From Paenibacillus antibioticophila (GTDB lineage Bacteria; Bacillota; Bacilli; Paenibacillales; Paenibacillaceae), in assembly GCF_000455265.1 (NCBI RefSeq), contig NZ_HG005140.1:640751-704750 (forward strand): 64,000 nt of DNA, read 5' to 3'. A program made the position numbers and the translations under genes. Below are positions 27,955 through 49,871 of the stretch, piece by piece. The notes under the pieces are model-generated. The model saw only the letters and a program-made list of their open reading frames with translations. It was not told where the DNA came from and did not search any database. Position 1 is the first letter of the stretch; each line of letters starts with the position of its first letter.

Positions 27955-28060
27955 CTCTACGACATCTCCCAGGTTTTTATCCTTCCGTGTAGTCCCCGGC
28001 GTGCGGGACCGTTTACTCTCGGACCAGACTCTGTTGCCAGACGGAACCCTAGTAAACTCC
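27955..28060 (-). promoter_or_regulatory. Guanidine-I (ykkC-type) riboswitch
   Basis: Read on the minus strand, the conserved blocks of the guanidine-I aptamer appear in order: ACTAGGGTTCCG, CTGGTCCGAGAGTAAAC, ACACGGAAGGATAAAAACC and TGGGAGA. Downstream the GGGAGATGTC segment can pair with GATATCTCC, and a GCACC/GGGTGC hairpin lies between, but no T-run follows, so control may be at translation or by an unusual terminator. The aptamer ends about 95 bases before the UAAP1 start. Binding of guanidinium would switch the deiminase operon on. Confidence 0.93.
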
Positions 28061-28429
28061 AAAGTTATTCAGTTGTCGAAGCTTTTATGTTAGATAATAT
28101 AACGTCAAATTTTTAATCTTGTCAAACAGAAAAATAAAGAAGGAGTTTTTTCTTCTTTCATTTTATCTATTTTCACGACACTATTTCATAATTTGAAAGC
28201 GTTATTATATAGAAGATAAACATTTGTTTACAGCCCCTGATTAAAAGAAATTCCTTTGATTTATCAAGCATCTCCACAATAAACAGCCCTCCATTTTGTG
28301 AAGAGTTCACAAAAACAGAACAGGAATACCCTCTCATTCTAGTGAGCATTCATGAAAATAAATCCAAGCCTCTTCGGCATCTTGACAGCTTTCGACAAAC
28401 GGAAGGATAATTAGAATCATAAATTTTAA

Positions 28430-28446: not shown

Positions 28447-28577
28447 CAAAAGGAATGTAATCTTAGAATAACTAACATATACATTACATTTAAGGTTAGT
28501 TAATTCCTTGAAATTATTGAGATGCTACTACAGTTTGAGAAACCCATGTATAGGTTTTGACAGAGAGGGGTTGCCAC

Positions 28578-30323: not shown

Positions 30324-30364
30324 CTACGCTCTTACTCAGTCTATATAGGAAGGAAGCGAACGCG

Positions 30365-32002: not shown

Positions 32003-32039
32003 CGCAAACCGCAAGACCATTCTAAAGGGGGAATAAAAC

Positions 32040-32843: not shown

Positions 32844-32861
32844 ATAAGGAGGGGTTTAGCC

Positions 32862-33665: not shown

Positions 33666-35025
33666 TCTGATCTCTACCTTTCGCCAGGATGCCCCCTTCC
33701 TGAAGAGCTTCCTCCTGCTGTCGCTGCCGATCGGCTTGCAGAGCATGATTACCAGCATCACGAACACCTTCAGTTCGCTGATGGTCGGGCAGCTTGGGGA
33801 TCTTCCGGTATCGGCCACCAGCCTGGCAGGACAAGTCTTCTTCATCCTTAATCTGATAATCGTCGGGATTGTCAGCGGGGCAACTATTTTTGTCTCTCAA
33901 TTCTACGGTAAAGGGGACCGCCAGCATCTGAATGTAGCCTCCGCACTGGCCTTCGCGCTGATTCTTGCAGTCAGCTTCCTGTTCACCTTGATTGGACTCC
34001 TCTGGCCACAGCAGGTAGTGGGTATTTTCTCACGAGAAAGTGAAGTCATTGCCATGGCTGCCCCCTATTTGCAGATTGTATGCCTGAGTTATCTGCCTAC
34101 CGGGATATCGCTGGCCTGTACGATGGTGTTCCGCAATATCGGCCGGCCCGGCTTCCCGCTGCGGGTTACGGTATTGACCATTCTGGTAGATGTCATCCTT
34201 AGCTACGGATTCATCTTCGGCAAGCTAGGTTTCCCTGAGTTCGGTGTACAAGGGGCCGCCTACGCCATCGTGGTGGCACGCCTGATTGAGATGGTCATTA
34301 TGGCCTCCATGCTGTACGGCAAGTTCGGCGAGTACGCTCCCCGCTTGGGTCATCTGCTGGCTGCTCGCAAGAAATTTCTGGCTATCTTCTTCAGAACCTC
34401 CTTCCCGGTGATCATTAATGAAACCGTGTGGAGCATCGGCTATGCCCTGTACAACGTGGTCTTCTACCATATGGGCTACACCGTCGGTGCTGCCGTCGGG
34501 ATTGCCAAGGTGCTGGAGCAGCTGCTGATCGCCTTCTTTATCGGTACTGGACAAGCCTCCGCCATCATCCTGGGGCAGACCATCGGGGAAGGCAAGCAGG
34601 ACAAGGCACCCTATCTCGTGAAACGCATGGAAGCTTATACCGCATTATTCGGTATTTTTACCGGAATTCTGCTCATTGCCGGCTCCCCGCTGCTGCTAAG
34701 CATGTATCAGGGCATCTCCGAGGAAGTGCGCAGCACGGTTACGTTGCTCTTGATCTACCTGGCGATCATTATGCCCATCAAAGGCATGAACTTCGTGCAC
34801 ATTATGGGCACGCTTCGGGCCGGGGGAGACACCAGGATGTGCTTCATCATCGATAACGTCACCTTGTGGTGCATTTCGCTGCCACTAACCTTCCTCACGG
34901 GGTACTTTCTGGACCTGGGAATCGGCATCGTCTTCCTGTTCGTCATCATCGATGACATATGCAAGTACGTACTCGTCCGGCTTCGCATCCGGAGCAATAA
35001 ATGGATTCGCAACCTGGTCAGCTAG
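33652..35025 (+). CDS. MATE-family efflux transporter
   Basis: A 457-residue multidrug-and-toxin-extrusion protein with twelve predicted membrane helices in two similar halves (FLLLSLPIGLQSMITSITNTFSSLMVGQLGDLPVSATSLAGQ; the second half begins near FFRTSFPVIINETVWSIGYALYNVVFYHMG). It exports organic cations coupled to Na+ or H+. Its placement inside an ABC importer operon, between ATPase and binding protein, is odd; exporters of guanidinium or by-products are known companions of guanidine riboswitch genes. It has only a weak ribosome-binding site and relies on coupling. Confidence 0.9.
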   Translation: MQPTSLISTFRQDAPFLKSFLLLSLPIGLQSMITSITNTFSSLMVGQLGDLPVSATSLAGQVFFILNLIIVGIVSGATIFVSQFYGKGDRQHLNVASALAFALILAVSFLFTLIGLLWPQQVVGIFSRESEVIAMAAPYLQIVCLSYLPTGISLACTMVFRNIGRPGFPLRVTVLTILVDVILSYGFIFGKLGFPEFGVQGAAYAIVVARLIEMVIMASMLYGKFGEYAPRLGHLLAARKKFLAIFFRTSFPVIINETVWSIGYALYNVVFYHMGYTVGAAVGIAKVLEQLLIAFFIGTGQASAIILGQTIGEGKQDKAPYLVKRMEAYTALFGIFTGILLIAGSPLLLSMYQGISEEVRSTVTLLLIYLAIIMPIKGMNFVHIMGTLRAGGDTRMCFIIDNVTLWCISLPLTFLTGYFLDLGIGIVFLFVIIDDICKYVLVRLRIRSNKWIRNLVS

Positions 35026-35077
35026 TCCAAGCCGGGTTTTGATCAAATACAAAAAAATGCATTGGAGGCGGGAAATC

Positions 35078-36157
35078 ATGATGAAACAAAAGAAACGCGG
35101 GTTGATGAAGCTAGGGGTCACACTACTGCTATTGATGGCTATGCTATCCGTACTGGCTGCTTGCGGCAATAACGGCGGAGCCAATCCAGCAGGCTCGGCA
35201 AATGGAAATAACACGACAGGAGCCGGGGGAAATGAGACAGCCTCGACCGCTCCAGTTCCAGTCAAAACGGCGTATGCCCCCTTTATCGGAGGCATTGGCG
35301 TATACGCGCTTGTCGACAAGGAATTTGATCTTGCGAACGGAGTGGATGTAGAGATTGGAGCCTTCGGTTCCACCTCACCGCTGATGAGCATCATGACAGG
35401 GGACGTAGACATTGCGTTCACCACACTGCAATCCTATCTCGTTTCTATTAATGCATTAATGGAAGAAGGCTCGGACATCGCGACCTTGCCAAAGATCGTG
35501 TATCTGCATAATTCCTCCACCGGAGCGGACGGAATCGTCTCGGACTCCAGCATTCAGACGGTGGCTGACCTGAAGGGCAAGACCGTATCCGCACAATACG
35601 GCGAAGTGACTCACTATATGTTGGCAAAGGCGCTGGATACCGTAGGCTTAACTATCGATGATGTCAATCTGGTGGACATGGGTCCAGGTAAAGGCGGAGC
35701 CGCCTTCGTTGCCGGTAGTGTCGATGCCGCTACGACGTTTGAGCCTTACTTGTCGCAAGGCGTCACTTCCCGTAAAGGGAACATCATCATCTCTACCGCG
35801 GATTTGGAGAACACCATTCTCGACGTCATCGTTGTCTCCGCCAAGACTGCCGAAGAGAAGCCAGCTTGGCTGCAAAACACCCTCAAGGCCGTGGAAGACG
35901 CGACCCAATACGTCAACAGCGACCTGTCCGCTGCCGCAGAATTGACAGCAGATGATCTGCAAGTGAGCGCCGCAGAAATCAAGGAAATGTTCCCGACCGT
36001 TCACCTCTATACCCTGGCCGATAACCATGAAGGCATGGATGAAGGCGGCTGGTTGTACGGAACAATGGAGGATGTAGTTGAATTCTATCATTCCATCGGA
36101 ATTATTGAAGAACCCTTTGACGTGAAGCAGCTTGTAATAGCAGATATTCTCTGGTAG
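35078..36157 (+). CDS. NitT/TauT-type ABC transporter substrate-binding lipoprotein
   Basis: A 359-residue lipoprotein: signal peptide with lipobox VLAAC, a Gly/Asn-rich linker, then an SsuA/THI5-type fold (PVKTAYAPFIGGIGVYALVDKEFDLANGVDVEIGAFGSTSPLMSIMTGDVDIAFTTLQSYLVS; DLKGKTVSAQYGEVTHYML). ATG 35078 follows GGAGGCGGG; the longer frame from 34952 overlaps the MATE gene and is rejected. It supplies substrate to the permease/ATPase pair upstream. A strong GC hairpin (36199-36221) lies after it. Confidence 0.92.
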   Translation: MMKQKKRGLMKLGVTLLLLMAMLSVLAACGNNGGANPAGSANGNNTTGAGGNETASTAPVPVKTAYAPFIGGIGVYALVDKEFDLANGVDVEIGAFGSTSPLMSIMTGDVDIAFTTLQSYLVSINALMEEGSDIATLPKIVYLHNSSTGADGIVSDSSIQTVADLKGKTVSAQYGEVTHYMLAKALDTVGLTIDDVNLVDMGPGKGGAAFVAGSVDAATTFEPYLSQGVTSRKGNIIISTADLENTILDVIVVSAKTAEEKPAWLQNTLKAVEDATQYVNSDLSAAAELTADDLQVSAAEIKEMFPTVHLYTLADNHEGMDEGGWLYGTMEDVVEFYHSIGIIEEPFDVKQLVIADILW

Positions 36158-36259
36158 TAGCATAGCCACTTCGCTGTATGCCTTAATCCAGACTTGAACC
36201 GGGCGGGGACTCTCCGTCCGGCACACTCTACTATTTTCTAATACGGAGGCGATGCTTTG

Positions 36260-36832
36260 ATGATTACGATTCCTGAAAACAGCGTGTACATTCTGGTGGA
36301 TGTGCAGAACTCAGACCCGGCGAAGGAGCCTCGCGGCAATTCAGACAAACGGGAGCGGTACTTGAAGAACGTCGAGCGTGTGACGGAATATTTCCGTGAA
36401 CGCGGGGACGTGCCCATTGTCCATATCCGGGAAATTCACCGCAAGGACCTGATCGATTACGGCCGCGAATTGGAAGGCGCAGAGAACATTCACTGCCTGG
36501 AGGGCACGCCCGAAGCGACCTACTATGAGCCTACAGCTCCCATTGAAGGGGAATATACGGTGGATAAGCGCCGATATAGCGCCTTTTTCGGGACAGATCT
36601 GGAGATTCTGCTCCGCGGCCTGAAGGCTGAGCATCTGTTCCTGGTTGGCGGCATGACCGATATTTGCGTGCATTACACCGCTATAGATGCGCACCAATAC
36701 AACTATCATGTTCATGTGTTCAAGGAAGCCTGCGGCACGCCAAGCAGTGATGAGGTGGCCCAGGCAGCACTGGACAATATCGAGTATCATCAGGCTGGCT
36801 CCATCATTTCTGTCGAAGATTTGTTCCAGTAA
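36260..36832 (+). CDS. Isochorismatase-like cysteine hydrolase, paralog 1
   Basis: A 190-residue hydrolase of the isochorismatase-like superfamily with the catalytic triad Asp14 (LVDVQNSD), Lys103 (TVDKRRYSAF) and Cys136 (GGMTDICVHYT). The family includes biuret, triuret and guanylurea hydrolases, ureidoacrylate amidohydrolase and nicotinamidase. With allophanate hydrolase in the same cluster, hydrolysis of a ureido compound is more likely than isochorismate. GGAGG lies 10 bases before ATG 36260 (TTG 36257 is possible). It is followed after 30 bases by a close paralog. Confidence 0.87.
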   Translation: MITIPENSVYILVDVQNSDPAKEPRGNSDKRERYLKNVERVTEYFRERGDVPIVHIREIHRKDLIDYGRELEGAENIHCLEGTPEATYYEPTAPIEGEYTVDKRRYSAFFGTDLEILLRGLKAEHLFLVGGMTDICVHYTAIDAHQYNYHVHVFKEACGTPSSDEVAQAALDNIEYHQAGSIISVEDLFQ

Positions 36833-36862
36833 GAGCTTGTATAAAAAAGGAGGAGATTCCCC

Positions 36863-37438
36863 ATGACCCAAATTCCCGAACACAGTGCGTTGCTAGTTAT
36901 CGATATTCAGAATGACTTTGTAACGGTAAGCGACGCTATCCCGATCATGGAAGGCGGTACGTGTATGCTCAACTCGCCGAAGGTCATCGGTCATTTTCGC
37001 AAGCTGGGACTGCCCGTGATTCAAATTCGCGAGCTGCACCGTGCCGATCATAGCGACTTCGGCCGCGAGCTCGATGGCGTGGAGAAGGTCCACTGTCTGG
37101 AAGGAACGCCTGCCGAGGAATTCCATCCGCTGACTGCTCCAATCGAGGGCGAATACATTATCACAAAACGCCGGTATAGCGCGTTCTTCGCTACGGACTT
37201 GGATCTGCTCCTGCGGTGCCTGGGCGTCAAGCGTCTGTACCTGATCGGCGGCATGACCGATATCTGCGTACGCTTCACGGCCGTAGACGCTCATCAGCAT
37301 GATTATCACTTCCATGTCGTATCCGATGCGGTGATCGGCACTAGCCGGCAGGCTCACAATATGGCGCTGCTGAACATGGAGTATCTGCAAACCGGGGCAA
37401 ATATGACGACCGAAGAAGTGCTGGCGCTGACGCGCTAA
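36863..37438 (+). CDS. Isochorismatase-like cysteine hydrolase, paralog 2
   Basis: A 191-residue paralog of the preceding protein: Asp14 (VIDIQND), Lys102 (IITKRRYSAFF) and Cys135 (GGMTDICVRFT). The two share long blocks (GRELxGxExxHCLEGTPxxxxxxxTAPIEGEY, GGMTDICV), so they arose by tandem duplication and may form a heteromer or act on successive substrates, as triuret and biuret hydrolases do elsewhere. AAAGGAGGAG precedes the ATG. Confidence 0.87.
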   Translation: MTQIPEHSALLVIDIQNDFVTVSDAIPIMEGGTCMLNSPKVIGHFRKLGLPVIQIRELHRADHSDFGRELDGVEKVHCLEGTPAEEFHPLTAPIEGEYIITKRRYSAFFATDLDLLLRCLGVKRLYLIGGMTDICVRFTAVDAHQHDYHFHVVSDAVIGTSRQAHNMALLNMEYLQTGANMTTEEVLALTR

Positions 37439-37440
37439 CA

Positions 37441-38901
37441 ATGATGGCGAACGCTCATCCCTCCCAGGAGGAGAACTCTCGCGTACAGCAAATAGCTGCC
37501 AGTATTGATCGGCTAAGCCCTCAGCTAACCGCTCTAAGCGACCATATCTGGGAGCTGGCAGAGACCAAATTCGAGGAATTTGGCTCCGCCCGGCTCCTGG
37601 CCGGCATGCTGGAGGAAGCGGGCTTTGATGTCAGCCACGGGATCGGCGGGCTGCCGACCGCTTTTATGGCTTCATTTGGGCAGGGCGATGGTCCGGTCAT
37701 CGCCCTGCTAGGGGAATATGATGCCTTGCCTGGGCTGAGCCAGAGAGATGGAGTGGTTCAGCGGGAGCCGCTGCAAGACGACAGCGGCAATGATAATGGG
37801 AATGGCCACGGCTGCGGCCACCATCTGCTGGGGACAGGCTCGCTTGCCGCCGCCATCGCCTTGAAGGAGTACCTGGCCGAGACCGGGCTTCCAGGTACCA
37901 TCAGGTACTACGGTTGTCCCGCCGAGGAAGGCGGCTCCGGCAAAACCTTCCTCGTGCGGGAAGGGGCCTTCGACGGCGTGGATGCCGCCTTGACCTGGCA
38001 CCCGGGCTACGGCAATGCCGTCGTGTCCATGACGTCGGCGGCGAACTACCAGGTGCGCTACCGCTTTGAGGGGCGCAGCTCCCACGCTGCCGCCAGTCCG
38101 CACACGGGACGCAGCGCGCTGGACGCGGTGGAGCTTATGAACGTGGGCGCCAACTACCTGCGAGAGCACGTCCCGCCCAGCGTCCGCTTCCATTACGCCG
38201 TGACCAACACCGGCGGCTTCTCCCCCAATGTCGTCCAAGCCACGGCGGAGGTCGTGTACCTCATTCGCGCTCCCGAAGTTCGCGATGTTGAAGCCGTCTA
38301 TGCCCGGATCAACGACATCGCCCAAGGGGCAGCCTTAATGACCGGAACACAGGTACAGATTCGGTTTGAGAAGGCCTGTTCCAATCTCATTCCGAACATC
38401 ACGCTGGAACAGATCATGCAGCACTGCTTCGAGCAGCTTGGCGTACCCACGTTTACAGAGAGAGAACAACGTTACGCCGCGGCTATCTCCGCCACGCTGG
38501 TGGAACAGTCGGAAGGGGGGAATGTCAACACCCCCTCCCCTCTACCCTTGCCGGAGACGCTGGATGCCTACGAGCCGGAGGCAGGCAGCATGCTAGGCTC
38601 CACCGATGTGGCCGACGTGAGCTGGATCATTCCCACAGCCCAGCTCGAGACCGTGTGCTTCGCTCGTGACACGCCGTTCCACTCGTGGCAGATGGTGGCC
38701 CAGGGGCGGTCAAGCGCCGCCCATAAGGGCATGCTGCACGCCGCCAAGGTTATGGCGGCCACCGCAGCAGCCCTGATGGCAGAGCCCTCGGCCGTGCTGG
38801 AGGCGACGCAGGAGCTGCGCCGCCGGGGCGGCATCGAAGGCTATGCCTGCCCGATCCCGGGGGATGTGCTTCCCCCGGTACATCCCTCATTGCGCGCCTG
38901 A
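37441..38901 (+). CDS. M20-family amidohydrolase (AbgB-like)
   Basis: A 486-residue zinc amidase of the M20D/AbgB type, which removes amide-linked groups from small molecules. Zinc-ligand motifs are visible: GHGCGHHLLGTG, a CPAEEGGSGKTF glutamate pair, LTWHPGYG and the C-terminal DTPFHSWQMVAQG. An inserted NDNGNGHG-rich loop precedes the metal site. It begins two bases after the previous stop and has no clear ribosome-binding site, so translation is probably coupled. Substrate unknown; likely the last step in processing the imported nitrogen compound. Confidence 0.88.
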   Translation: MMANAHPSQEENSRVQQIAASIDRLSPQLTALSDHIWELAETKFEEFGSARLLAGMLEEAGFDVSHGIGGLPTAFMASFGQGDGPVIALLGEYDALPGLSQRDGVVQREPLQDDSGNDNGNGHGCGHHLLGTGSLAAAIALKEYLAETGLPGTIRYYGCPAEEGGSGKTFLVREGAFDGVDAALTWHPGYGNAVVSMTSAANYQVRYRFEGRSSHAAASPHTGRSALDAVELMNVGANYLREHVPPSVRFHYAVTNTGGFSPNVVQATAEVVYLIRAPEVRDVEAVYARINDIAQGAALMTGTQVQIRFEKACSNLIPNITLEQIMQHCFEQLGVPTFTEREQRYAAAISATLVEQSEGGNVNTPSPLPLPETLDAYEPEAGSMLGSTDVADVSWIIPTAQLETVCFARDTPFHSWQMVAQGRSSAAHKGMLHAAKVMAATAAALMAEPSAVLEATQELRRRGGIEGYACPIPGDVLPPVHPSLRA

Positions 38902-39865: not shown

Positions 39866-41104
39866 CTAGTCCTCATCCTGCTCCAGTAGAGTATTGAGCC
39901 ATAGTCCCGCTAAATGATTCGCCCCTCGGAAGCCCACAAAGGGCGGGTCATATGGGCTTAAGCGCCATCTTACGTCAGGGGTGCCGATTTGAAGCTCAAG
40001 ACTGCGCCCCGACCATTTCAGTGCCTCCCCCGAGGCCATTAGCACCCCCTGCTTATGTGCGACGACCACACGCGTCCACTCATCCTCCGTGTAATAGGGA
40101 ATATCTGTACTAGCCATGTCAGGAGAATCACACCAGCAAACACCCGGGCTTAGCGAAAACTCCTCGCGGGCATAAGCCAATATTCCTTCCACCACATCCG
40201 CATGTCCCCCCAGGGAAACCGTTGCTTCCTCAGGATGAGAACGAACGATATGTTGAAAGACGCGGCGGGACGGGATCAGCAGGCCCTGCGCCCGCTCGGT
40301 CTCCGCCTGCACAAATTCCCGATTGGGCTGCCGACCGCAAAGCTCCGCAATCTGCTCAATCCAACGAAGCGTTCCCTTGATGCCATAAGGTCTTGCCGGT
40401 AAATAGGGGGTTCCGAACTGCTCGCGCAAATGCTGTGCTGCCGCCTCCCCCTCGCGGCGGATTACCAGATTAATATGAGCACCACCCATCTGCTCGATAT
40501 CATGCACATGGGTATCCGAGGTAAGTATACAAAGCGGTCTCATGCCAAAGGCTCCCTCCATAATACGCACAAGCTCCTCCGCATCCGCCTGAAAGCGAAA
40601 CAGGTCCGCGCAAGAGCCTATAATATTATAGGTGGGCTGCACCGTTTTCTCCGCCTGTCGTGGCAGCGTCCGAACCAGCAATAGAAGTGCCTCCCGCACC
40701 CCCTGATATCCGAATACATCGAAGCCCCCTGCACCAAATGGCAGCAATGGCACCTCGGGGAAATCCAATTGCAGTTCCCGGCATATTGCAGGCAAATCCG
40801 TACCGATTACCGTTGGCACCGAAGAGGGCAGCAGGAATACGATCTCGGGATGATCGCGCTCTATAATCTCAGCGATTGTGCGGTGAAGTCGACCCGTATC
40901 CCCCAGTGAAATATCCGTTTCATCGATATGAGTGGAATACAACCGGCAGGCATCCACGACCCCAACCTGCTCCAGAAATACCCGTCCATACAGCATATGA
41001 CCCATGCATCCGTATTCAACCAGCGCCGCACCGCGAATAGATGCCAGCGTCCGCAGCGTTCCCATTCTACCGGACATAGGCGGCCTCAGCTTATACAGTC
41101 CCAT
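39866..41104 (-). CDS. Nitrogenase-like beta-type subunit (NifK/BchB-superfamily)
   Basis: A 412-residue member of the nitrogenase component-1 superfamily. The N-terminus has LVEYGCMGHMLYG, placing Cys33 at the second P-cluster-ligand position of NifK, but the first position has no Cys and the third is serine (LLPSSVPTVIGTDL, Ser95 in place of Cys). The fold-typical GTDLPAICREL, PLLPFGAGGFDVFGYQGV and C-terminal PFVGFRGANHLAGLWLN are present. It can therefore give one ligand to a cluster shared with the alpha-type partner, as in DPOR/COR enzymes, but not a full P-cluster. GGGAGG lies 7 bases before its ATG, inside the preceding gene (14-base overlap). Confidence 0.85.
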   Translation of the reverse strand: MGLYKLRPPMSGRMGTLRTLASIRGAALVEYGCMGHMLYGRVFLEQVGVVDACRLYSTHIDETDISLGDTGRLHRTIAEIIERDHPEIVFLLPSSVPTVIGTDLPAICRELQLDFPEVPLLPFGAGGFDVFGYQGVREALLLLVRTLPRQAEKTVQPTYNIIGSCADLFRFQADAEELVRIMEGAFGMRPLCILTSDTHVHDIEQMGGAHINLVIRREGEAAAQHLREQFGTPYLPARPYGIKGTLRWIEQIAELCGRQPNREFVQAETERAQGLLIPSRRVFQHIVRSHPEEATVSLGGHADVVEGILAYAREEFSLSPGVCWCDSPDMASTDIPYYTEDEWTRVVVAHKQGVLMASGEALKWSGRSLELQIGTPDVRWRLSPYDPPFVGFRGANHLAGLWLNTLLEQDED

Positions 41105-42386
41105 ATATATTCCTCCCGATTCGCATCCTCTGTGCCTGTTGCCAAGTCTCCAGCATGCGGTTGATTAGCAGACAGGTTCGCTCATAGCCGATTCGTCCGT
41201 ACAGCTCATATAAATGCGATATACAAGGAATTGCTCCTGTTCCGCCCGGAATCTCCCCAAAGGATAGAGCGGGGTTCATTCGTTCCAGCACCTTAGCATC
41301 CGCTTCCTCATTTACCATGTGGCATATCAACGGGTCTTCGCCGACACCCTTCAATGCCTTGGCCCACTTTCGATCATCCGGATAGAATTCCTCAACATGC
41401 AAAAGAAGCGGTTTCATATGAAGCTCGGCCAGATACAGGGCAAGCGGCAGAGGCGTCAGCGCATTTTGATGCGTAGCGATATAGCTTATCCCCTGAAATA
41501 CCTGGCGTGCTCGCTCATGCAATGAGGCAGCCTCCTTCCTCGCTGCTTCAAACTCGTCATTCCACTGAATATCCAGCGCTTCCGCTACATCCGCATAGAG
41601 ACGATCAATTCCGGGTACATCATACGTTTCGTGAAGGCTGATGTAAGGCACTCCGCAGCGCCTTTTCATAAGCTCCGCCAACGGATTCATATATGGAGAG
41701 AGCACCAGGTTCAGCCGTGCATCTCCAGCATCAATAAAATCGGCAATGTCCGATTTGGGGGCAAGCATACGCAGCCGGAAGCCTCTCTCCTTGAGCGCTT
41801 GAAGCAATTCCGGTTCAGGGACATGCTCCTCCCTTGGACTGCGCCCCAGAATGTTAACAATATCAGGGCAAGTTTCCGCCTGCTCCACCAGTTCGCCAAA
41901 GGCAGCCAAGGTCTTCCAATAGCCGGACGGATAACTGTTGCACTTGAAGTGGCCCATCAGAACAAAGCTCAGCTGCGCCTTGACCTCCGGCTGTATCTCA
42001 CGCACAATCCCTTCGATATCCTCGCCGATCACCTCCGGCACACAGGTCAGCACCAGCATAATGGCCTTGGTTCCAGTCTGGTCCATCTCCCGGATTGCCC
42101 CGATAAGCCCTTCGCGGCAGCCAAACACCACCTCATGGGCATCCAGAATATACATCCAGTGGTACACACCCTCTTTGCCGCTGGCATGCTCTACTACCTT
42201 CCGGCTGTAAATGCCGCACTCCGCCGTACCTACCACAAGCGTGGACATGCCATTGATATTCGAGCTGATCGCCAGCGCTGTATGCATCGGGCAATGGTTT
42301 CCGGGAAAAGCCGCCGGAGTCAAAAATTTAACACCGGCATTCGACCTCACCGACGACAAGCGTTTTACATGCTTCAACTCGCTCAT
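41091..42386 (-). CDS. Nitrogenase-like alpha-type subunit (NifD/BchN-superfamily)
   Basis: A 431-residue component-1 protein. Cys32 ([10 protein letters not shown]), Cys57 ([12 protein letters not shown]) and Cys115 ([16 protein letters not shown]) sit at the three P-cluster positions of NifD, and [13 protein letters not shown] matches the D..DIVFGG block. The region that holds the FeMo-cofactor cysteine of NifD (Cys275) reads [16 protein letters not shown], with no cysteine, so a canonical cofactor is unlikely. The C-terminal [14 protein letters not shown] block is retained. Its ATG overlaps the NifH-like stop (ATGA). Substrate unknown. Confidence 0.88.
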
Positions 42387-43138
42387 TCCGCTTCCCTTCC
42401 CTCCAGCAGGCGCAAGGCCAATCTCTTATAATGCTCCGCCATGTCTGAATCCGGGAAGGCCTCCACCACCGTCTTGCCCTGCGCTTCAGCTTCCTGAACC
42501 AAGGGATGGCGGGGCAGCCTGTAAATAACCGAGGCGTCCATCTCCGCTGCCGCCTGATCCACCAGTTCGTCCTCTCGCTCAATGTTCTTGGCATTCAGGA
42601 TCAGCCCTCGCAGTGAAGCATACCCGCGCTTCCCGAAGCTTTTGACCGCATGCGCAATATTGGTGGCGGCATACAAAGCCATCATCTCGCCGGAGGTAAC
42701 AATACACACCTCGTCCGCATATCCGCCCCGGATAGGCATGGCGAATCCGCCGCATACCACATCGCCCAATACGTCGTACAGAACAACATCCGGCTTGTAG
42801 ATCTCATAAGCCTCCAACTCCTCCAGCTTTTCGAAGGCAGTAATAATCCCCCGCCCCGCGCACCCGACTCCAGGCACCGGGCCGCCGGACTCCACACACA
42901 GCACTCCCGTACTGCTCTGCACCACCAGTTCCTCCAGCTCCGCATCCCCATTCTCTCGTAAAACATCCAGCACGGTTGGAATGTTGTTCCCACCGGTCAA
43001 GGTACGGGAGGAGTCGGCCTTGGGGTCACAACCAATTTGCAGCACCGTTAATCCCATAGCAGCCATGGCTGCGGATATGTTGGAAACGGTAGTAGACTTG
43101 CCAATGCCTCCCTTGCCATAGATTGCAATTTTTTTCAC
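42383..43138 (-). CDS. NifH/BchL-like iron-sulfur ATPase (reductase component)
   Basis: A 251-residue P-loop protein that would form a homodimer bridged by one [4Fe-4S] cluster and pass electrons with ATP hydrolysis to the component-1 pair encoded next. Motifs: Walker A GKGGIGKS (8-15), IGCDPKADS (switch region), Cys93 in [10 protein letters not shown] and Cys129 in [14 protein letters not shown], both cluster ligands. It is shorter at the C-terminus than true NifH. GTG start with AGGAGG upstream. First gene of a coupled three-gene operon, divergent from an AraC regulator. No nifB, nifE, nifN or ferredoxin genes are nearby. Confidence 0.92.
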
Positions 43139-43214
43139 TTATATTTGTCCTCCTAAAGTGAGTAATCAAACGGCCACAATCTCGTTCTGCATAACCTGTT
43201 TAAGTGCAACAATC

Positions 43215-43335: not shown

Positions 43336-43350
43336 TGATAATAATTATCA
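43336..43350. promoter_or_regulatory. Fur box in the AraC/nitrogenase-like intergenic region
   Basis: TGATAATAATTATCA is a perfect 7-1-7 Fur operator (TGATAATNATTATCA). It lies 20 bases before the AraC start and about 200 bases before the NifH-like start on the other strand, so it would directly repress the activator gene under iron-replete conditions. Confidence 0.92.
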
Positions 43351-43370: not shown

Positions 43371-44198
43371 ATGATGAGCATCGTGGACAAGCTAGCGGAC
43401 ATTTTTGCCGGACGATCCTATGAGCTTCACGGGGTATACCATTTGATCATTCAGCCCAAGAGCGTTCTCAGAAAGTGGAGAACCTCCCACCACGGCTTTC
43501 TGTTTGTTATACGAGGCCAGGCCAAAATGAAGGTGAATGGCACCCATTACGCCCTGCATCCGGGGACGGTGCTGCATGCCAGCCCAGGACTGGAACTGAA
43601 TGCACAGCTGCTAGGCGAGTCCGAGCTTGAGTATTTCTCCCTCTTCTACACACTTGACCATCCGGAGATGCTCAAGAGCATCGGTGAAGCCAGCGAGCAT
43701 TTCCTGCTTGAGCCAGGGCCAAGTCCATCCGTCCCCGAGCTGCTCACTATGCTTCACCGCAATATTCGTATGTCAGAGACAAGCATCGCCAAGCTCCGGG
43801 CCAAGGAGCTGTTCTTAAGCCTGATGCACCAGACGCTGGCTAACTGCCAATATCGGGCAAGCGGGAGCTCCCCCGACAAAAAGACCATTGAACAGGCACT
43901 GGCCTATATTAATGAATATTATATGAATCCACTAACACTGGATGAGCTGGCCAGCCTCTACGCCATGCCCCCCCAACGATTTTCCTACTACTTCCGTAAA
44001 TACACAGGATGGGGGCCGATTGATTATGTGATTCATTACCGTATGGAAAGAGCAAAAGAGCTGCTAAAAAACGGCACCTTCCTCGTCCGCGATGTGGCCG
44101 CCAGCGTCGGATACGCCAACCCGCTGTATTTTAGCCGGGTATTTAAGAAAAAGTTCAGTGTCTCCCCCTCTGAATATATCCGGCAGCTGGAGCCATAA
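43371..44198 (+). CDS. AraC-family transcriptional regulator
   Basis: A 275-residue activator: N-terminal cupin-like sensor (HHGFLFVIRGQAKMKVNGTHYALHPGTVLHASPGLEL) and two C-terminal AraC helix-turn-helix motifs (LTLDELASLYAMPPQRFSYYFRKYTG and LVRDVAASVGYANPLYFSRVFKKKFSVSPSEYIRQL). I use ATG 43371, after GGGAAGGCAGG; the frame opens at 43335 inside the Fur box, which cannot be the start. It probably senses a chelate or an imported metabolite and activates the divergent operon and perhaps the monooxygenase/transporter operon. Confidence 0.92.
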   Translation: MMSIVDKLADIFAGRSYELHGVYHLIIQPKSVLRKWRTSHHGFLFVIRGQAKMKVNGTHYALHPGTVLHASPGLELNAQLLGESELEYFSLFYTLDHPEMLKSIGEASEHFLLEPGPSPSVPELLTMLHRNIRMSETSIAKLRAKELFLSLMHQTLANCQYRASGSSPDKKTIEQALAYINEYYMNPLTLDELASLYAMPPQRFSYYFRKYTGWGPIDYVIHYRMERAKELLKNGTFLVRDVAASVGYANPLYFSRVFKKKFSVSPSEYIRQLEP

Positions 44199-44260: not shown

Positions 44261-44309
44261 TTCCCTGTTACTATCATTGAGAATGATTATCAATGATAGT
44301 AACAGGGAA
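44261..44309. promoter_or_regulatory. 20-bp perfect inverted repeat enclosing a Fur box
   Basis: TTCCCTGTTACTATCATTGA (44261-44280) is repeated inverted at 44290-44309, around nine bases. The centre forms TGAGAATGATTATCA (44278-44292), one mismatch from the Fur consensus. The right arm supplies the ribosome-binding site (AGGGAAGGG) of the monooxygenase gene, so as RNA the hairpin could also hide it. Roles as Fur operator, AraC site, or terminator for the AraC gene are all possible. Confidence 0.8.
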
Positions 44310-44316
44310 GGGTTGA

Positions 44317-45630
44317 TTGACTTTGCATGTAGACAAGCAGCTATGCATTGGATTGTCTCTATCGCCAACCTGGCTCAAAGGAGCAGGCTGGCGCAGGGAG
44401 GACAGTCGTGCGGAACAAATCTTCTCAAGCAGTTTCTACACCGATCTGGCAAGACAAGCAGAGCGGGCCAAGCTGGATTTCGTATTTAAGCCGGATGTGA
44501 TGGCTCTTCCTGTAGAAACACTGGAGCGCTCTCCAGGCTTCGGTGGGCTTGATCCATCCTTGCTGCTCGCAGCGCTTGCGCAGTCCACCAGGCACATCGG
44601 TCTGGTAACTACCGTGTCCTCAACATTTACACCCCCCTACCTCGCAGCAAGGCAAGCCCAATCCCTGAATTGGATCAGCCAGGGGCGCGCCGGCTTAAAC
44701 ATAGTAACTGCGATTGATGGCGCCGCCAACTTCGGGCTTCGTGATATGCCTCCATCAGAGGAGAGGTACGCCAAGGCAACGGAGTTCACACAGGTGGTAC
44801 GCCAGCTCTGGAACAGCTTCCCCGGTGAAGCAATGATCGTTGATCGCAACGCCGGACAGTTTGCGGACCCGTCCAGAATATTGCCTATTGATCACCAAGG
44901 GAATTTCTTCCGTGTTCAGGGGCCTCTGAATTTACCTACCTACCCGGCAGGTGAAATTCCCTTGATTCAAGCTGGAGCATCAGCCGCAGGACTGGACTTC
45001 GCCGCCGCAGCAGCGGATGGTATATTTGCAGCAGCGCCCGATATGGCCGCAAGCTTCCAATTGCGTCAAAGCTTGCAGAGCCGGGCAAGAAAGATAGGAC
45101 GGTCACCGGAAGCGATCCGTGTGCTGCCGGGCATGCACTTCTTCCTTGCGCACACACGCAATGAGGCATTGGACCTGCACCGGGAGACACATGCGCATCT
45201 ATCTGTTGAGCAGCGTTATGCATCCATTCAAGCCCTGCTAGGTATAGATATGCGGCATTTCGCTCCGGACCAGCCGATAACCCTGAGCCTGCTTCCCGAT
45301 CCGCCTGTGGCTGTGCGGAGCAGAACCCATACCGACCTGCTCCGCACGCTGATTGAACGGGAACAGCCCACGGTTCAGGAACTGATCGCAAGGCCGGAGG
45401 TTGTCAATTCCGGACACTGGGTAGTCATTGGGACGGTGGAGGATGCTCTGAAAGAAATTCTCGCATGGCATGAAGCCGGGGCCATGGATGGATTCATCGC
45501 ACTGCCGGGCGGCTCTTCAACGTCACTGCAATTATTTTTCGAGGAACTGATCCCCCGGCTTGCTGAGAGAGGCTTGTTCAGACGCGAGTACAAGGGCAAC
45601 ACCCTCCGCGAACATTTGGGGATCGTTTAG
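44317..45630 (+). CDS. NtaA/SnaA/DszA-type flavin-dependent monooxygenase
   Basis: A 437-residue TIM-barrel monooxygenase of the bacterial-luciferase-like class, FMNH2-dependent group that includes nitrilotriacetate and EDTA monooxygenases and desulfurisation enzymes. Family blocks: GAGWRREDSRAEQIFSSSFYTDLARQAERAKLDFVFKPD, GLVTTVSSTFTPPYLAARQAQSLNWISQGRAGLNIVTAI, ERYAKATEFTQVVRQLW, DHQGNFFRVQGPLNLP and IPLIQAGASAAGLDFAAAAADGIFAA. TTG start with GGGAAGGG just upstream. Placed under a Fur box and before an iron-chelate importer, it may cleave the imported chelator. Confidence 0.9.
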   Translation: MTLHVDKQLCIGLSLSPTWLKGAGWRREDSRAEQIFSSSFYTDLARQAERAKLDFVFKPDVMALPVETLERSPGFGGLDPSLLLAALAQSTRHIGLVTTVSSTFTPPYLAARQAQSLNWISQGRAGLNIVTAIDGAANFGLRDMPPSEERYAKATEFTQVVRQLWNSFPGEAMIVDRNAGQFADPSRILPIDHQGNFFRVQGPLNLPTYPAGEIPLIQAGASAAGLDFAAAAADGIFAAAPDMAASFQLRQSLQSRARKIGRSPEAIRVLPGMHFFLAHTRNEALDLHRETHAHLSVEQRYASIQALLGIDMRHFAPDQPITLSLLPDPPVAVRSRTHTDLLRTLIEREQPTVQELIARPEVVNSGHWVVIGTVEDALKEILAWHEAGAMDGFIALPGGSSTSLQLFFEELIPRLAERGLFRREYKGNTLREHLGIV

Positions 45631-45690: not shown

Positions 45691-46719
45691 ATGAATAAGA
45701 GACAGTACACAAAGATGAAGTGGACAGGCCTGGCCATGCTGCTTGTCCTTGTTCTGGCAATAGCCGGATGTGGAGCACAGCAGAACAATGCGGCAACACC
45801 CGCCACTGCGAACGATACACCAGTTGAAGACGCGGGAACCAAGCAAGCAACGAGCGATACGGCATCTGATAGCGACACGAGAACCATCGAGTACCTTGGC
45901 GAAACCTATACATTGCCTAAAAATGTAACAAAAATCGTCGTCACCGGAGCGATGGAAGCCATGGAGGATGCAGCGGCGCTTGACGTTCAACTGGCCGGAG
46001 CCATCTCTGTAGGCGGACAATTCCCGGAGGTCTTCGCAGAAATCACCCGTGAGGCCGAGTCCATCGGGGAGAAGCAGCAGCCCGACTTCGAGAAGATCGT
46101 TCAGATTAGCCCGGATGTCATTCTGGGTACGACTAAATTCCAGCCTGAAGTGCTTGAGAAGCTGCAAAAAATCGCAACCACAATACCCGTATCCCACATC
46201 TCGACCAACTGGGAGGCCAATCTTCGGCTGATGGGCGAGCTGGCAGGGAAGCAGGAGGAAGCCGAGCGCATCTTGACTCAGTACAAGCGTGACGCACAAG
46301 CGGCCAATACTTCATTGAAGGCCAAGCTCCAGGGCAATACCGTCGCGGCTATCCGTATTCGCGGAGCACAGGCTTATGTATATCCTGCCGATATCTACCT
46401 GAACCCGGTGCTGTATGGCGAAATTGGTCTGGAAGTTCCTCCACAGATTAGTGCGGCCAAGACACAGGAAGCCATTTCCGATGAGCAACTGGCGGAGATG
46501 AATCCGGATTATTTGTTCATCGAATTCGCAGCAAGTGAGAATAACGAAGCCGAGAAGGCCTACGAGGAATTGAAGAAGAAGCCGATCATTCAGAACATTA
46601 AGGCCTTCAAGCAAGATCAGGTATTTGTCAATGAGTTGGACCCGTTGCTGGAGGGCGGCACTGCCTTCAGTCGGATTCAATTTCTGGAAATCGTGCAAAA
46701 TCTGCTGGCAAAGCAATAG
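45691..46719 (+). CDS. Iron-chelate (siderophore) ABC transporter binding lipoprotein
   Basis: A 342-residue lipoprotein: lipobox AIAGC, a Thr/Asp-rich linker, then a class III binding-protein fold (TIEYLGETYTLPKNVTKIVVTGAMEAMEDAAALDVQLAGAISVGGQFPEVF; FEKIVQISPDVILGTTKFQPEVLEKLQKIATTIPV; EMNPDYLFIEFA; VFVNELDPLLEGG). FhuD/FeuA/FecB-like proteins of this type bind ferric chelates or related metal complexes. Sixty bases after the monooxygenase and probably cotranscribed. Confidence 0.9.
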   Translation: MNKRQYTKMKWTGLAMLLVLVLAIAGCGAQQNNAATPATANDTPVEDAGTKQATSDTASDSDTRTIEYLGETYTLPKNVTKIVVTGAMEAMEDAAALDVQLAGAISVGGQFPEVFAEITREAESIGEKQQPDFEKIVQISPDVILGTTKFQPEVLEKLQKIATTIPVSHISTNWEANLRLMGELAGKQEEAERILTQYKRDAQAANTSLKAKLQGNTVAAIRIRGAQAYVYPADIYLNPVLYGEIGLEVPPQISAAKTQEAISDEQLAEMNPDYLFIEFAASENNEAEKAYEELKKKPIIQNIKAFKQDQVFVNELDPLLEGGTAFSRIQFLEIVQNLLAKQ

Positions 46720-46734: not shown

Positions 46735-47736
46735 ATGCTGGAGTTCGGTAGAGCCATAGTCCGGATCAGCCTGTTTGCTCTCCTATGCATGGTTACCATC
46801 ATGGCCTCCGTCTCCCTGGGCTCCAAGATCATCCCCTTGGAAACGGTATGGCAAAGCTTTGTACAGTTTGACCCGGAGAATATGGATCACTTGATCCTGC
46901 AAACCTCGCGCCTCCCCAGAGGCATCGGCGCCTTGCTCATCGGTGCCTTTATGGCCGTCTCCGGCGCTCTGATGCAGGGGATGACACGGAATTATCTGGC
47001 CTCCCCTTCCATTCTGGGCGTTGCCGACGGCTCCGTATTTATCATTACCCTGTGCATGGTCTTTCTGCCCGGTTCTTCCTCTGTAACACTGATCATATGT
47101 TCACTCACCGGCTCGGCTCTAGGCGCCGCATTAGTATTTGCTATAGCGCGTGCGCTGCCAGGAGGCATGACACCACTAACCCTAAGCATCCTGGGAACCA
47201 TCATCGGAACCTTGCTTAACGGAACAGCGCAGGCGCTCGCCTCTTACTTTCAAGTGTCCCAGAACATTAGCTTCTGGTACAACGCCAGACTGCATCAAAT
47301 GGACCCCGTCCTGATCAAATGGACGATTCCCTTTGCCATCGTCGGCCTTGCTCTGGCCTTCTTGGTCCTTCGCTCCGTGGCCGCCCTATCCTTGGGCGAA
47401 GACATCGCCCGCGGGATGGGTGTTCGCGTTCCGTTGATGAAGGCCTTGATTATGCTGAGCGTTGTCATTCTGACGGGGGTATCGGTTGCCATGGCCGGGA
47501 AGATTGCTTTTGTCGGCCTGATTATTCCGCATATCGCCCGGATGCTCTTCGGAGCGGATTACCGTAAAATCGTTCCCTGCTCCGCCGTGCTCGGCGCCTT
47601 GTTCCTGGCCTGGTCGGACATTATCAGCCGCTTCCTGAATGCTCCCTTTGAGACACCTGTCGGTGTCGTTACGGCGATATTCGGCGTTCCGTTCTTTCTC
47701 TACCTGATCAAAACGAAGGGAGGAAGAAGCGCATGA
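46735..47736 (+). CDS. FecCD-family iron-chelate ABC permease 1
   Basis: A 333-residue permease with about nine to ten membrane segments. FecCD motifs: TSRLPRGIGALLIGAFMAVSGALMQGMTRNYLASPSILGVADGS, LGEDIARGMGV, MAGKIAFVGLIIPHIARMLFGADYRKIVPCSAVLGALFLAWSDIISR and ETPVGVVTAIFGVPFFLYLI. AGGAG precedes its ATG; its end overlaps the next gene by four bases. Confidence 0.93.
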   Translation: MLEFGRAIVRISLFALLCMVTIMASVSLGSKIIPLETVWQSFVQFDPENMDHLILQTSRLPRGIGALLIGAFMAVSGALMQGMTRNYLASPSILGVADGSVFIITLCMVFLPGSSSVTLIICSLTGSALGAALVFAIARALPGGMTPLTLSILGTIIGTLLNGTAQALASYFQVSQNISFWYNARLHQMDPVLIKWTIPFAIVGLALAFLVLRSVAALSLGEDIARGMGVRVPLMKALIMLSVVILTGVSVAMAGKIAFVGLIIPHIARMLFGADYRKIVPCSAVLGALFLAWSDIISRFLNAPFETPVGVVTAIFGVPFFLYLIKTKGGRSA

Positions 47737-48776
47737 ACCAGCAGAAGCAGCAGAAACAGCAGGTACGGGCCTCGCTCGTATTTTTGTTCGCTATGGCCCT
47801 GTCTCTACTAGTCATGTATATCAGCATCACGAACGGCTCCTTCGATATACCTGCGCTGGATGTCGCTCGAACCCTGCTGCGCCTTCAATCGGTCGAGCAA
47901 TACGACCTGATTATATTCGACTTTCGCTTACCCCGAATCGTCATCGGGGCTTCGGTAGGATTTGCACTGGGAACTGCCGGTGCCGTGCTTCAAGGCATCA
48001 CGCGGAACCAGCTTGCCGATCCGGGCATTCTAGGCATCCAGTCTGCTGCAGGCCTGGCCATTGTAGGCTACATGTTTTTCTTTCAAGGCACATTAAAGGG
48101 AATCGGCTGGCTGTCAACGATGATGATGCCGCTATTTGGCTGGGTCGGAGGCCTGATCGCCGCCCTGCTGCTGCTGATTTTCGCCCGCCAGCAGGGCGTG
48201 CTTGACCCCCAGAGGCTGATCTTATCGGGGATTGCCTTTAGCTCAGGCTTCGGCGCATTGACGCTGTACCTCTCTCTGAAGATGGACCCCCAGGATTTCG
48301 AGATGGCCACAGTCTGGCTGTCAGGCAGTATCTACGGTGCTAGTTGGGAGCAAATTGCCGCCCTTCTGCCGTGGATAATCCTGCTCGTCCCCTTGATCTG
48401 GATGAGAGCGCATATTCTCAACTTGCTCCATCTGGACGAGGTGACCCTATCCGGAATCGGTGTAAACAAGGCTCGTGAGAGAATGGTTCTGCTTCTGTGC
48501 TGTGTTGGATTAATCGGTGCCAGCGTATCCGTAGCAGGGAGCATCAGCTTTATCGGCCTGATTGCCCCCCATATTGCCAGACGACTGGTCGGCATTCCAT
48601 ACAAATACGTGATTCCCGTTTGCGGCGTTATCGGCATGCTCATGGTATTGCTGGGAGACCTGATCGGTAGAACCCTCTTCACCCCGGTCGAGCTGCCGGT
48701 TGGCATTGTCATCTCCATCATCGGTGTACCGTTTTTCATCTATTTACTGTTCAGATCCAAAAACAAACATTCATGA
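47733..48776 (+). CDS. FecCD-family iron-chelate ABC permease 2
   Basis: A 347-residue permease forming a heterodimer with the preceding one. Motifs: DFRLPRIVIGASVGFALGTAGAVLQGITRNQLADPGILGIQSAAG, VAGSISFIGLIAPHIARRLVGIPYKYVIPVCGVIGMLMVLLGDLIGRTLF and ELPVGIVISIIGVPFFIYLLF. No ATPase gene follows, so the pair must use an ATPase encoded elsewhere, as several Bacillus siderophore importers share YusV. Confidence 0.93.
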   Translation: MNQQKQQKQQVRASLVFLFAMALSLLVMYISITNGSFDIPALDVARTLLRLQSVEQYDLIIFDFRLPRIVIGASVGFALGTAGAVLQGITRNQLADPGILGIQSAAGLAIVGYMFFFQGTLKGIGWLSTMMMPLFGWVGGLIAALLLLIFARQQGVLDPQRLILSGIAFSSGFGALTLYLSLKMDPQDFEMATVWLSGSIYGASWEQIAALLPWIILLVPLIWMRAHILNLLHLDEVTLSGIGVNKARERMVLLLCCVGLIGASVSVAGSISFIGLIAPHIARRLVGIPYKYVIPVCGVIGMLMVLLGDLIGRTLFTPVELPVGIVISIIGVPFFIYLLFRSKNKHS

Positions 48777-48950: not shown

Positions 48951-49871
48951 GTGAGTGAATGGATTATTGAAACAAAGGGTTTAACGAAAAAATACCGTGG
49001 CCGCAGCGCCGTGGATCAACTGGATCTGAATATTGCAAAAGGTGATATCTACGGCTTCCTTGGCCCGAACGGGGCCGGGAAAACAACAACCATCCGCATG
49101 CTGCTTGGACTGATTCAGCCGACGGCAGGCAGTATCTCGATCTTTGGACAGGAGCTTAACAAGCATAAGCTCGATATTTTGCGCCGAATCGGATCTCTGG
49201 TTGAGTATCCTTCCTACTACGGCCATCTGAGCGCTGTGGATAATCTTGAAGCTATCCGCCGCATTCTCAGCGTGCCCAAATCCAGAATCGACGAGGTGCT
49301 GGAGATCGTCTCGCTGACCAGCGAGTCACGGCGCCCGGTCAAGGGCTTCTCGCTGGGCATGAAGCAGCGGCTGGGCATCGCAGCATCTTTGCTTGCAAAC
49401 CCTGAGTTGCTCATTCTGGACGAGCCGACCAACGGGCTGGATCCTTCCGGGATCCATGAGATCCGTGAGCTGATCAAGAGCATGCCGGAGCAATACGGCA
49501 TTACCGTGCTGGTCTCCAGCCACTTGCTTAGCGAAGTAGAGCAAATGGCCGGGCGGGTCGGTATTATCCGCGAAGGACGCATGGTATTCCAGGATACGAT
49601 TCGGAATTTGAAAGAGCAGGCTTCGTCCGAGATATCCCTGGTTGTCTCCGATCCCGAAGCAGCGCTGTGGCTGGCTCGAGATACTGGGCTGGGCGTGGCT
49701 GGAACCGTGAAAGAGGGGGCGCTCGTGTTCCCGGGCATGGCGGACAAGAATGTTCCTTTGCTGGTTAAACGGCTCGTTGAGAACGGTCATGATATTTACC
49801 GGGTCGAGGAGCACCGGAAATCGCTGGAGGATATCTTCATGCAAGTCATCGGGGGCGGTGACCGGCTATGA
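48951..49871 (+). CDS. Peptide-antibiotic immunity ABC transporter ATPase (BcrA/LanF-like)
   Basis: A 306-residue ATPase with Walker A GPNGAGKTT (about 37-45), signature FSLGMKQRLGIAASLL, Walker B LLILDEPTNGLDPSG and H-loop VSSHLLSEVEQ; the KGFSLGMKQR form and the C-terminal extension with VEEHRKSLEDIFMQVIGG are typical of BcrA/LanF. These transporters remove lantibiotics or bacitracin from the membrane. GTG start preceded by GAGG within a hairpin. No bacteriocin precursor or modification gene is nearby, so it is likely a stand-alone resistance system. Confidence 0.9.
   Translation: MSEWIIETKGLTKKYRGRSAVDQLDLNIAKGDIYGFLGPNGAGKTTTIRMLLGLIQPTAGSISIFGQELNKHKLDILRRIGSLVEYPSYYGHLSAVDNLEAIRRILSVPKSRIDEVLEIVSLTSESRRPVKGFSLGMKQRLGIAASLLANPELLILDEPTNGLDPSGIHEIRELIKSMPEQYGITVLVSSHLLSEVEQMAGRVGIIREGRMVFQDTIRNLKEQASSEISLVVSDPEAALWLARDTGLGVAGTVKEGALVFPGMADKNVPLLVKRLVENGHDIYRVEEHRKSLEDIFMQVIGGGDRL

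Follow-up and report, generated by a model that had tools for sequence, protein, structure and literature searches.

A nitrogenase-like HDK operon linked to iron-chelate uptake genes in Paenibacillus antibioticophila: a possible reductase for iron release

The HDK operon and its neighbours

The DNA analysed here (the window) comprises 64,000 nucleotides of the Paenibacillus antibioticophila genome (NCBI RefSeq assembly GCF_000455265.1, contig NZ_HG005140.1, positions 640,751 to 704,750 of the forward strand) and carries, on its reverse strand, an operon of three nitrogenase-like genes, H, D and K. H (42383..43138; 251 aa, GTG start, AGGAGGA at 43148-43154) encodes a NifH-like protein predicted to act as an ATP-dependent electron donor, D (41091..42386; 431 aa) a NifD/BchN-like subunit and K (39866..41104; 412 aa) a NifK/BchB-like subunit. 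All three open reading frames (ORFs) are complete, with an ATGA common to H and D and a 14-base overlap between D and K. Their products score far above the Pfam cut-offs (Fer4_NifH PF00142, 312 bits for H; Oxidored_nitro PF00148, 236 bits for D and 172 bits for K), which bears out the initial annotation's description of three coupled NifH-, NifD- and NifK-superfamily genes. The H P-loop GKGGIGKS, Cys93 and Cys129, reported there as intact, are invariant in 15 of 15 aligned H proteins, as is Arg96. H is 79% identical to the Sporomusa H, 50% to a MarH and 49% to the NifH of the same genome.

The genes facing the operon are on the forward strand. A Fur box with no mismatch (43336-43350) is located between H and the divergent gene for an AraC-family regulator (43371..44198; PF12833, PF02311), for which ATG at 43371 is a likelier start than the listed TTG at 43335, which adjoins the box. 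A second Fur box, with one mismatch (44278-44292), forms the centre of an inverted repeat (44261-44309) just before the gene for an FMN monooxygenase of the NtaA/DmoA family, here called LLM (44317..45630; TIGR03860, 381 bits, NCBIfam cut-off 280). These are the only two Fur-box matches with up to two mismatches in the 64-kb window, and 40 window shuffles gave none with up to one mismatch. The repeat has 24-nt arms that are 96% complementary, and 7 bases separate its end from the listed start codon of LLM. Because the probable ribosome-binding site GGGAAGGG overlaps with the right arm, translation of LLM could also be controlled by folding of the RNA. Next follow genes for an iron-chelate substrate-binding protein (45691..46719; Peripla_BP_2 PF01497, 83 bits) and two FecCD permeases (46735..47736 and 47733..48776; PF01032, 269 and 295 bits). 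All three pass the Pfam cut-offs, so that a FecBCD-type importer is present save for its ATPase: no FecE-like ATPase gene was found beside the permeases, and the nearest ATPase (48951-49871) reaches 67 bits on a model that gives 438-571 bits in clade A loci (defined below) with the operon ATPase in place. The best NCBIfam model for the binding protein is an Fe-dicitrate binding protein (68 of 320 bits), with IsdE at 47 of 299 bits. The AraC regulator, the Fur boxes, the chelator-type monooxygenase and the iron-chelate importer named in the initial annotation were thus all recovered.

Family placement and cluster ligands

A maximum-likelihood tree, midpoint rooted and with ultrafast bootstrap, was built from 35 D and 34 K proteins and 12 references, namely the NifD, NifK, NifE and NifN of the same genome, Mar-type proteins of Chlorohelix, BchN and BchB of Sulfitobacter and four Treponema proteins; CfbD and BchYZ were outside the set. 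Two duplicate loci (L043 of L030 and L046 of L026) were left out, two other nif-like loci (L054, L055) were kept off the tree, and contig ends removed K from L028 and H from L049. The D and K proteins of the HDK family form two clades, each with 100% support and apart from the Nif, Mar and Bch references, and the D clade groups with BchN (100% support). Two sub-clades can be distinguished: clade A, with 22 D (99%) and 21 K (100%) proteins, includes the window, and clade B holds 13 D and 13 K proteins (86%). The Chlorohelix Mar-type reference is sound, as it matches chain A of the solved Mar complex over nearly its full length at 475 bits; the same chain is the best PDB sequence match of K, at 68 bits. 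On a plasmid of Treponema saccharophilum (L057, 1801-12040), an ABC transporter is surrounded by two nitrogenase-component-1 pairs and NifX-like genes, and these pairs branch with MarD/MarK.

Profile scores were consistent with this separation. On the CfbD model TIGR03282, D and K reach 22 and 20 bits (cut-off 268), and the placement in MarHDK or CfbCD that would have refuted the initial annotation was not found. The CfbC model gives H 335 bits (cut-off 402), and the NCBIfam scan also gave some resemblance of the subunits to the NifE and NifN models. CfbCD, a tetrapyrrole-acting relative, differs in having one D-type subunit and no K, whereas HDK has both. The DPOR cut-offs were likewise not reached, with K at 92 of 490 bits (BchB), D at 30 of 420 (BchN) and H at 204 of 345 (BchL).

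In the D subunit, the cluster cysteines Cys32, Cys57 and Cys115 are kept in 22/22 clade A and 13/13 clade B proteins and align with cysteines of BchN, NifE and Mar. The K subunit has lost its share of the P-cluster ligands: the first position is a gap throughout the family and the third is Ser, Ala or Thr (Ser or Ala in clade A). The second, which is the site of the Asp36 ligand of BchB, is His36 in 21/21 clade A proteins and Thr in 13/13 clade B proteins. Three residues before it, Cys33 is found in 20/21 clade A proteins, with Pro there in 12/13 of clade B. Cys33 or His36 of K is accordingly a candidate fourth cluster ligand, as judged from the alignment. Of the six P-cluster cysteines of NifDK, three per subunit, HDK therefore has three in D and none in K. 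The ligands of FeMoco are Cys275 and His442 in A. vinelandii numbering. In the alignment, the cysteine column is a gap in every D and K protein of both clades, and the histidine column is empty for clade A D and varies among the K proteins, with no conserved His aligned. Furthermore, the NifB profile found no match at E 1e-20 in 20 of 28 HDK genomes, in which drafts may miss genes, while six, including the window's genome, pass the NifB cut-off. No NifB-like radical-SAM gene was recognised beside HDK among those neighbours that were scanned.

The AlphaFold2 model of K (mean pLDDT 85) is nearest to DPOR BchB by Z (37.6 over 386 residues, rmsd 2.6), followed by NifN/NifEN (32.2) and Mar (31.5). 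Ranked by Z, the first 12 PDB entries are DPOR without exception (Z 34.1-37.6, 386-401 residues, rmsd 2.6-3.8), and Foldseek TM-scores are 0.77 for NifN versus 0.79-0.81 for most DPOR rows. The D model does not tell the families apart, since Z falls only from 26.3 to 25.0 across DPOR, NifEN, Fe nitrogenase and Mar. DPOR (BchLNB) and COR (BchXYZ) are built from H2 and (DK)2, with three cysteines from the D-type subunit, a single [4Fe-4S] relay and no large cofactor. Taken together, ligands and models predict the same plan for HDK: one [4Fe-4S] relay as in DPOR and COR, and direct binding of the substrate in the cavity. HDK differs from DPOR in its profile scores, far below the cut-offs, in the replacement of BchB Asp36 by His36/Cys33 in clade A K, and in its neighbourhoods, which are not photosynthetic. 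The same H, D and K trio is found in MarHDK and in IsrHDK/NfaHDK. According to published accounts, Mar has P-cluster and [Fe8S9C] cysteines (PMC12552129), which the window D and K lack, and a radical-SAM B gene belongs to each of the Mar, Isr and Nfa sets (PMC11423573).

Distribution and link to iron-chelate uptake

On another contig, the same genome encodes NifH and NifB (609 bits) along with ORFs in the order expected of nifD, nifK, nifE and nifN, which were named by that order and by tree position. The organism is thus a probable diazotroph, judging from its gene content, and the separate nif cluster makes HDK an addition to nitrogen fixation and no stand-in for it. The absence of nif genes noted in the initial annotation therefore stands beside HDK, where no NifB-like gene was recognised, but not for the genome. 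The family is patchily distributed. Among 35 other genomes of the genus only one has HDK (G034, which by sequence is the P. sanguinis locus L016, with a D that is 94% identical). A pattern search, able to detect only close relatives, was run on 84,980 species genomes and returned 24 stretches; 15 of these encode a relative, in Clostridia, Paenibacillaceae and Seleniivibrio, and a further relative lies on a plasmid of Sporomusa termitida (L031). A profile search gave strong matches in 11/391 genomes drawn from the class of C. tetanomorphum, 10/398 of its phylum and 3/50 of the phylum of Seleniivibrio; 18 new loci were left after genomes already in the set had been removed. The Sporomusa operon sits on the 131-kb plasmid pSPTER with transposase genes nearby, so the HDK operon may move between hosts. 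In the draft assembly of L017, H is split into two overlapping ORFs by a frameshift (8260-8998), through sequencing error or decay.

Iron-chelate transport genes accompany the operon well beyond the window. At 15 of the 18 newly drawn loci a FecCD gene lies within the stretch fetched, against 0.45 expected (P about 4e-23), the expectation being derived from the FecCD gene count per genome with each gene taken as an independent place. In genome G088 the only FecCD gene found is the one in the HDK operon. FecCD genes are nearby at 17/22 clade A and 13/13 clade B loci, and a one-strand run of binding protein, two FecCD permeases, in some cases an ATPase, H, D and K occurs at 14/22 clade A loci, among them L017 with its split H, L019 with a broken first FecCD gene, L028, whose contig ends before K, and L052 with an extra ABC gene. 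In L052 (14397-19865), PF00664/PF00005 ABC half-transporter genes flank the AraC and binding-protein genes of the operon; we take these to be reminiscent of the YbtPQ/IrtAB siderophore importers. The conserved link to iron transport, whose absence would have refuted the initial annotation, was found in other genomes. Of the fuller neighbourhood that it put forward for testing, the AraC gene (18/22 clade A loci) and FecCD recur, while LLM does not, being beside HDK at only 2/22 clade A loci (the window and P. sanguinis) and at 0/13 of clade B. The neighbourhood profiles were built without five L031 seeds, and the first TonB receptor of L031 is absent from the profile counts.

Receptors and binding proteins suggest what the importers carry. 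Both Seleniivibrio loci open with a TonB receptor gene whose product scores far higher on the IreA (570 and 583 bits) and CirA (360 and 365) models than on the heme receptor model (201 and 204 bits) or the B12 receptor model (178 and 185), all of these scores being under the cut-offs; the receptors are thus of siderophore type. A second, downstream receptor in L027 has a siderophore receptor as best model (165 of 224 bits). On the Sporomusa plasmid, one TonB receptor exceeds the siderophore-receptor cut-off (340 of 224 bits). At 5 kb from it, beyond transposase genes, lies a second receptor, with 861 of 924 bits for PRK13486 and 503 of 1200 for CfrA, the enterobactin receptor. In addition, a PF00756 esterase gene directly follows the Sporomusa K. 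In clade B the context is of heme type. Of 12 binding proteins scanned, 10 match IsdE best (the exceptions being L035 and L048), and the one in L036 is over the IsdE cut-off (358 of 299 bits). Genes for NEAT proteins and sortases, amid which HDK lies with IsdE-type genes, occur in L036 (7818-19851), L037 (4680-13223) and L051 (8037-17017), and L036 also has a Shr hemoglobin-interacting domain. No NEAT domain was found among the one or two neighbours scanned in each of L033, L040, L044, L045, L047 and L050. The Isd-type loci of clade B are candidates, by their gene content, for an oxygen-independent system of heme-iron release. A Flavodoxin_3 gene directly follows K in L033, L037, L038 and L051, all four loci in which that gene was scanned, and the flavodoxin is a possible electron donor for H.

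Fur boxes also occur at related loci. Across 34 of them (613,597 bases), nine matches with up to one mismatch were found, versus two in 12 shuffled sets together. Seven are sited immediately ahead of an operon gene or, if its longest reading is taken, within its first codons (twice in L016, and in L027, L030, L037, L050 and L052); of the other two, one is beside another AraC gene in L027 and one, in L042, is unplaced. These loci are not all independent, as L016 and the window are closely related, and so are L027 and L030. Sites with two mismatches, for which no shuffle control was run, occur 16-30 bp before H in L037, L044 and L047. In tests of chosen upstream regions, the match at L017 is at chance level (P 0.245), and those of the Negativicute L031 are better (P 0.015 and 0.04); the remaining clostridial regions gave no match.

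Several further candidates were set aside. Riboswitch control of HDK, by cobalamin or otherwise, was rejected, as no such match was found in the window or in L016-L030. Own catecholate synthesis as the source of the chelate was not borne out: the DHB-AMP ligase cut-off was passed in 0/15 clade A genomes, with weaker matches in 4/15 (best G837, 544 of 724 bits). The use of foreign siderophores by HDK hosts is possible. Among known siderophore reductases, SIP was found in 0/15 clade A genomes and FhuF in 2/15; this lack was dropped as support, because FhuF is also found in 0/196 Clostridia drawn from the class and its absence is therefore uninformative.

Two other features of the window are recorded here. 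A Guanidine-I riboswitch match (27964-28063, reverse strand, 84 bits) has an amidase-like ORF (28557-30323) on the opposite strand, and the region 30269-38901 looks like a nitrogen-compound uptake cluster, with a PucR-like regulator, nitrate/taurine-type ABC transporter genes, two isochorismatase-like ORFs and an M20 amidohydrolase, all named by reading except M20, which was identified by scan.

Proposed function and its alternatives

The initial reading of HDK as a reductase linked to iron acquisition is supported by these results. We put at about even the chance that HDK is a nitrogenase-like reductase that frees the iron of a chelate after import; this chelate would most probably be a ferric siderophore, perhaps one of the catecholate type. 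In the proposed mechanism, the FecCD importer would bring the ferric chelate into the cytoplasm, and H2, with one [4Fe-4S] cluster and ATP hydrolysis, would supply a D2K2 tetramer with low-potential electrons. The three cysteines of D and Cys33 or His36 of K would hold a single [4Fe-4S] relay in the tetramer, and through it the electrons would reach a substrate that, as in DPOR, occupies the D/K cavity directly, with no FeMo-type cofactor. Ferric iron would be reduced to ferrous iron, which would then leave the chelate. Coupling to ATP would be needed because ferric siderophore complexes have very low potentials. ATP gating would be useful here, since ferric triscatecholates have a potential near -0.75 V at pH 7. 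The reductase FhuF, by comparison, sits at about -0.36 V at pH 7.4 (PMC8068687). In Paenibacillus, LLM may serve as a partner that depends on oxygen; we guess this from its occurrence beside HDK in no other hosts. Among the substrates the initial annotation had offered (a chelate, a tetrapyrrole or a thioether), an iron chelate is favoured by the siderophore-type context of clade A and the heme-type context of clade B, and we infer a ferric siderophore as the probable substrate in the window's clade and heme in its sister clade. The evidence does not favour a thioether, since enzymes that cleave C-S bonds have P-cluster and cofactor cysteines that are missing here.

Several observations weigh against this proposal. 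At 5/22 clade A loci (L021, L025, L034, L041, L042) there is no FecCD gene in the stretch; the L034 genome has none at all at E 1e-20, and the genes scanned around L034, L041 and L042 have no iron theme. Eleven binding proteins from 10 clade A loci were scanned, with enterobactin FepB or dicitrate FecB as best model, and since all of them, the window's included, stay below the curated cut-offs, the substrate is weakly resolved. The first Sporomusa receptor does no better on a catecholate model (Fiu, 93 bits) than on hydroxamate models (FhuA 114, ferrioxamine B 102 bits), and the esterase is found at one locus only, its best named model, enterochelin esterase, matching weakly (32 of 222 bits). 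Fur boxes, on which the iron regulation initially claimed was based, are present in the window and at seven operon positions of other loci, but none were found at most clostridial clade A loci in the upstream regions chosen, with up to three mismatches. For the K model, the Foldseek order by E-value puts NifN before BchB. Finally, the putative fourth cluster ligand is not general, as the clade B K sequences have Thr for His36 and mostly Pro for Cys33.

Other functions for HDK were weighed against the same evidence. The complex might reduce the organic part of the import, such as a tetrapyrrole macrocycle, with iron lost as a consequence; clade B would then hold an oxygen-independent replacement for heme oxygenase, and clade A would act on a related or modified ligand. 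This is unlikely in our judgement, if kept alive by the heme context of clade B, where HDK adjoins IsdE, NEAT and sortase genes, and by the likeness of the K model to BchB by Z. COR reduces C=C bonds. DPOR and CfbCD, which have only [Fe4S4] clusters and a tetrapyrrole site, likewise reduce C=C bonds (PMC12552129). The siderophore-type receptors of clade A in Gram-negative hosts and the lack of a B12 riboswitch in the window and L016-L030 speak against it. The compound transported and reduced could instead be another metal chelate, a cobalamin or corrinoid or a Mo/W or Ni metallophore, to which iron is incidental. FecCD/BtuC permeases carry several such ligands, and permease model scores do not separate them; the Fur boxes, found both in the window and at seven operon positions of other loci, the siderophore-type and heme-type context and the lack of a cobalamin riboswitch in the window and L016-L030 nevertheless make this improbable.

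A role as a maturase that couples metal import to the assembly of a metal cofactor was suggested for related loci in 2012 (Dos Santos et al., PMC3464626), and the resemblance to the NifE and NifN models is in keeping with it. Set against that are the missing FeMoco ligand, the 20/28 genomes in which NifB found no match at E 1e-20, the lack of a recurrent client enzyme beside HDK in the loci examined and a heme and siderophore receptor context unlike that of a cofactor factory, so that the idea is highly improbable. Least credit of all is given to sulfur scavenging by a C-S reductase of the MarHDK/IsrHDK type, with LLM as its aerobic counterpart. LLM does belong to the NtaA/DmoA family, and the Mar chain is the best PDB sequence match of K; yet the Mar-type reference falls elsewhere in the tree, the P-cluster and L-cluster cysteines are absent, and the neighbours scanned include no recognised NifB-like radical-SAM gene. 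A sulfur enzyme of the Mar/Isr type was rejected on tree position and ligands.

The iron-release proposal can also be set beside what has been published. In 2012, nitrogenase-like proteins without FeMoco ligands were listed as Group IV beside ABC transporters, cofactor assembly being suggested and no substrate given (Dos Santos et al., PMC3464626). In the description there, clostridial NifH and NifEN-like pairs lie downstream of an ABC ATPase gene, as at HDK loci, and the E-like subunit has three P-cluster cysteines and no FeMoco ligands, the same as in HDK. On this description Group IV and HDK probably belong to the same wider family. The main text of that article contains none of the words siderophore, heme, TonB, sortase, ferric or AraC. 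A 2014 article described nifDK-like pairs in Paenibacillus, their role unknown, and contains neither siderophore nor heme (PMC3961195); MarHDK and IsrHDK have been characterised since (PMC12552129, PMC11423573). In the open-licence PMC literature, no nitrogenase-like siderophore or heme reductase was named in the titles or abstract openings of the matches listed, no paper was found that combines nitrogenase-like with ferric siderophore, and nitrogenase and NEAT domain came together only in unrelated uses. Nitrogenase-like with heme degradation gave only a tetrapyrrole review and a carnitine monooxygenase paper, neither of which, in the text seen, proposes a role for HDK; in a paper on a C. perfringens NEAT locus, the word nitrogenase is absent (PMC5026354). 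The family thus appears to be known in outline, with its ABC-transporter link noted in 2012, and the assignment to iron release from siderophores or heme appears to be new, as a hypothesis.

The same job of releasing iron from an imported chelate is done by SIP/YqjH, FhuF, the heme oxygenases IsdG/HO-1 and anaerobic ChuW. These proteins are unrelated to HDK and use other electron sources, and we know of none that is driven by ATP. The heme system of ChuW operates anaerobically (PMC7242693).

More broadly, and with confidence a little short of even, HDK may represent a branch of the nitrogenase superfamily devoted to iron piracy in anaerobes and free of any nitrogenase cofactor, in which clade B would be the oxygen-independent counterpart of heme oxygenase in Isd-type loci and clade A an ATP-driven reductase for ferric siderophores whose stability defeats ordinary reductases, electron transfer in both being gated by ATP as in nitrogenase. 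It would then be expected that HDK proteins are iron-repressed in hosts with Fur boxes and contain only [4Fe-4S] clusters. If true, this would add a new substrate class to nitrogenase relatives, known to act on N2, biosynthetic tetrapyrroles and C-S bonds, and would give a job to the Group IV proteins listed without function in 2012. Some anaerobes, for instance C. perfringens, do have a heme oxygenase (PMC5026354); where such oxygen-dependent enzymes fail, HDK would help to explain how anaerobes obtain iron from heme and from very stable siderophores.

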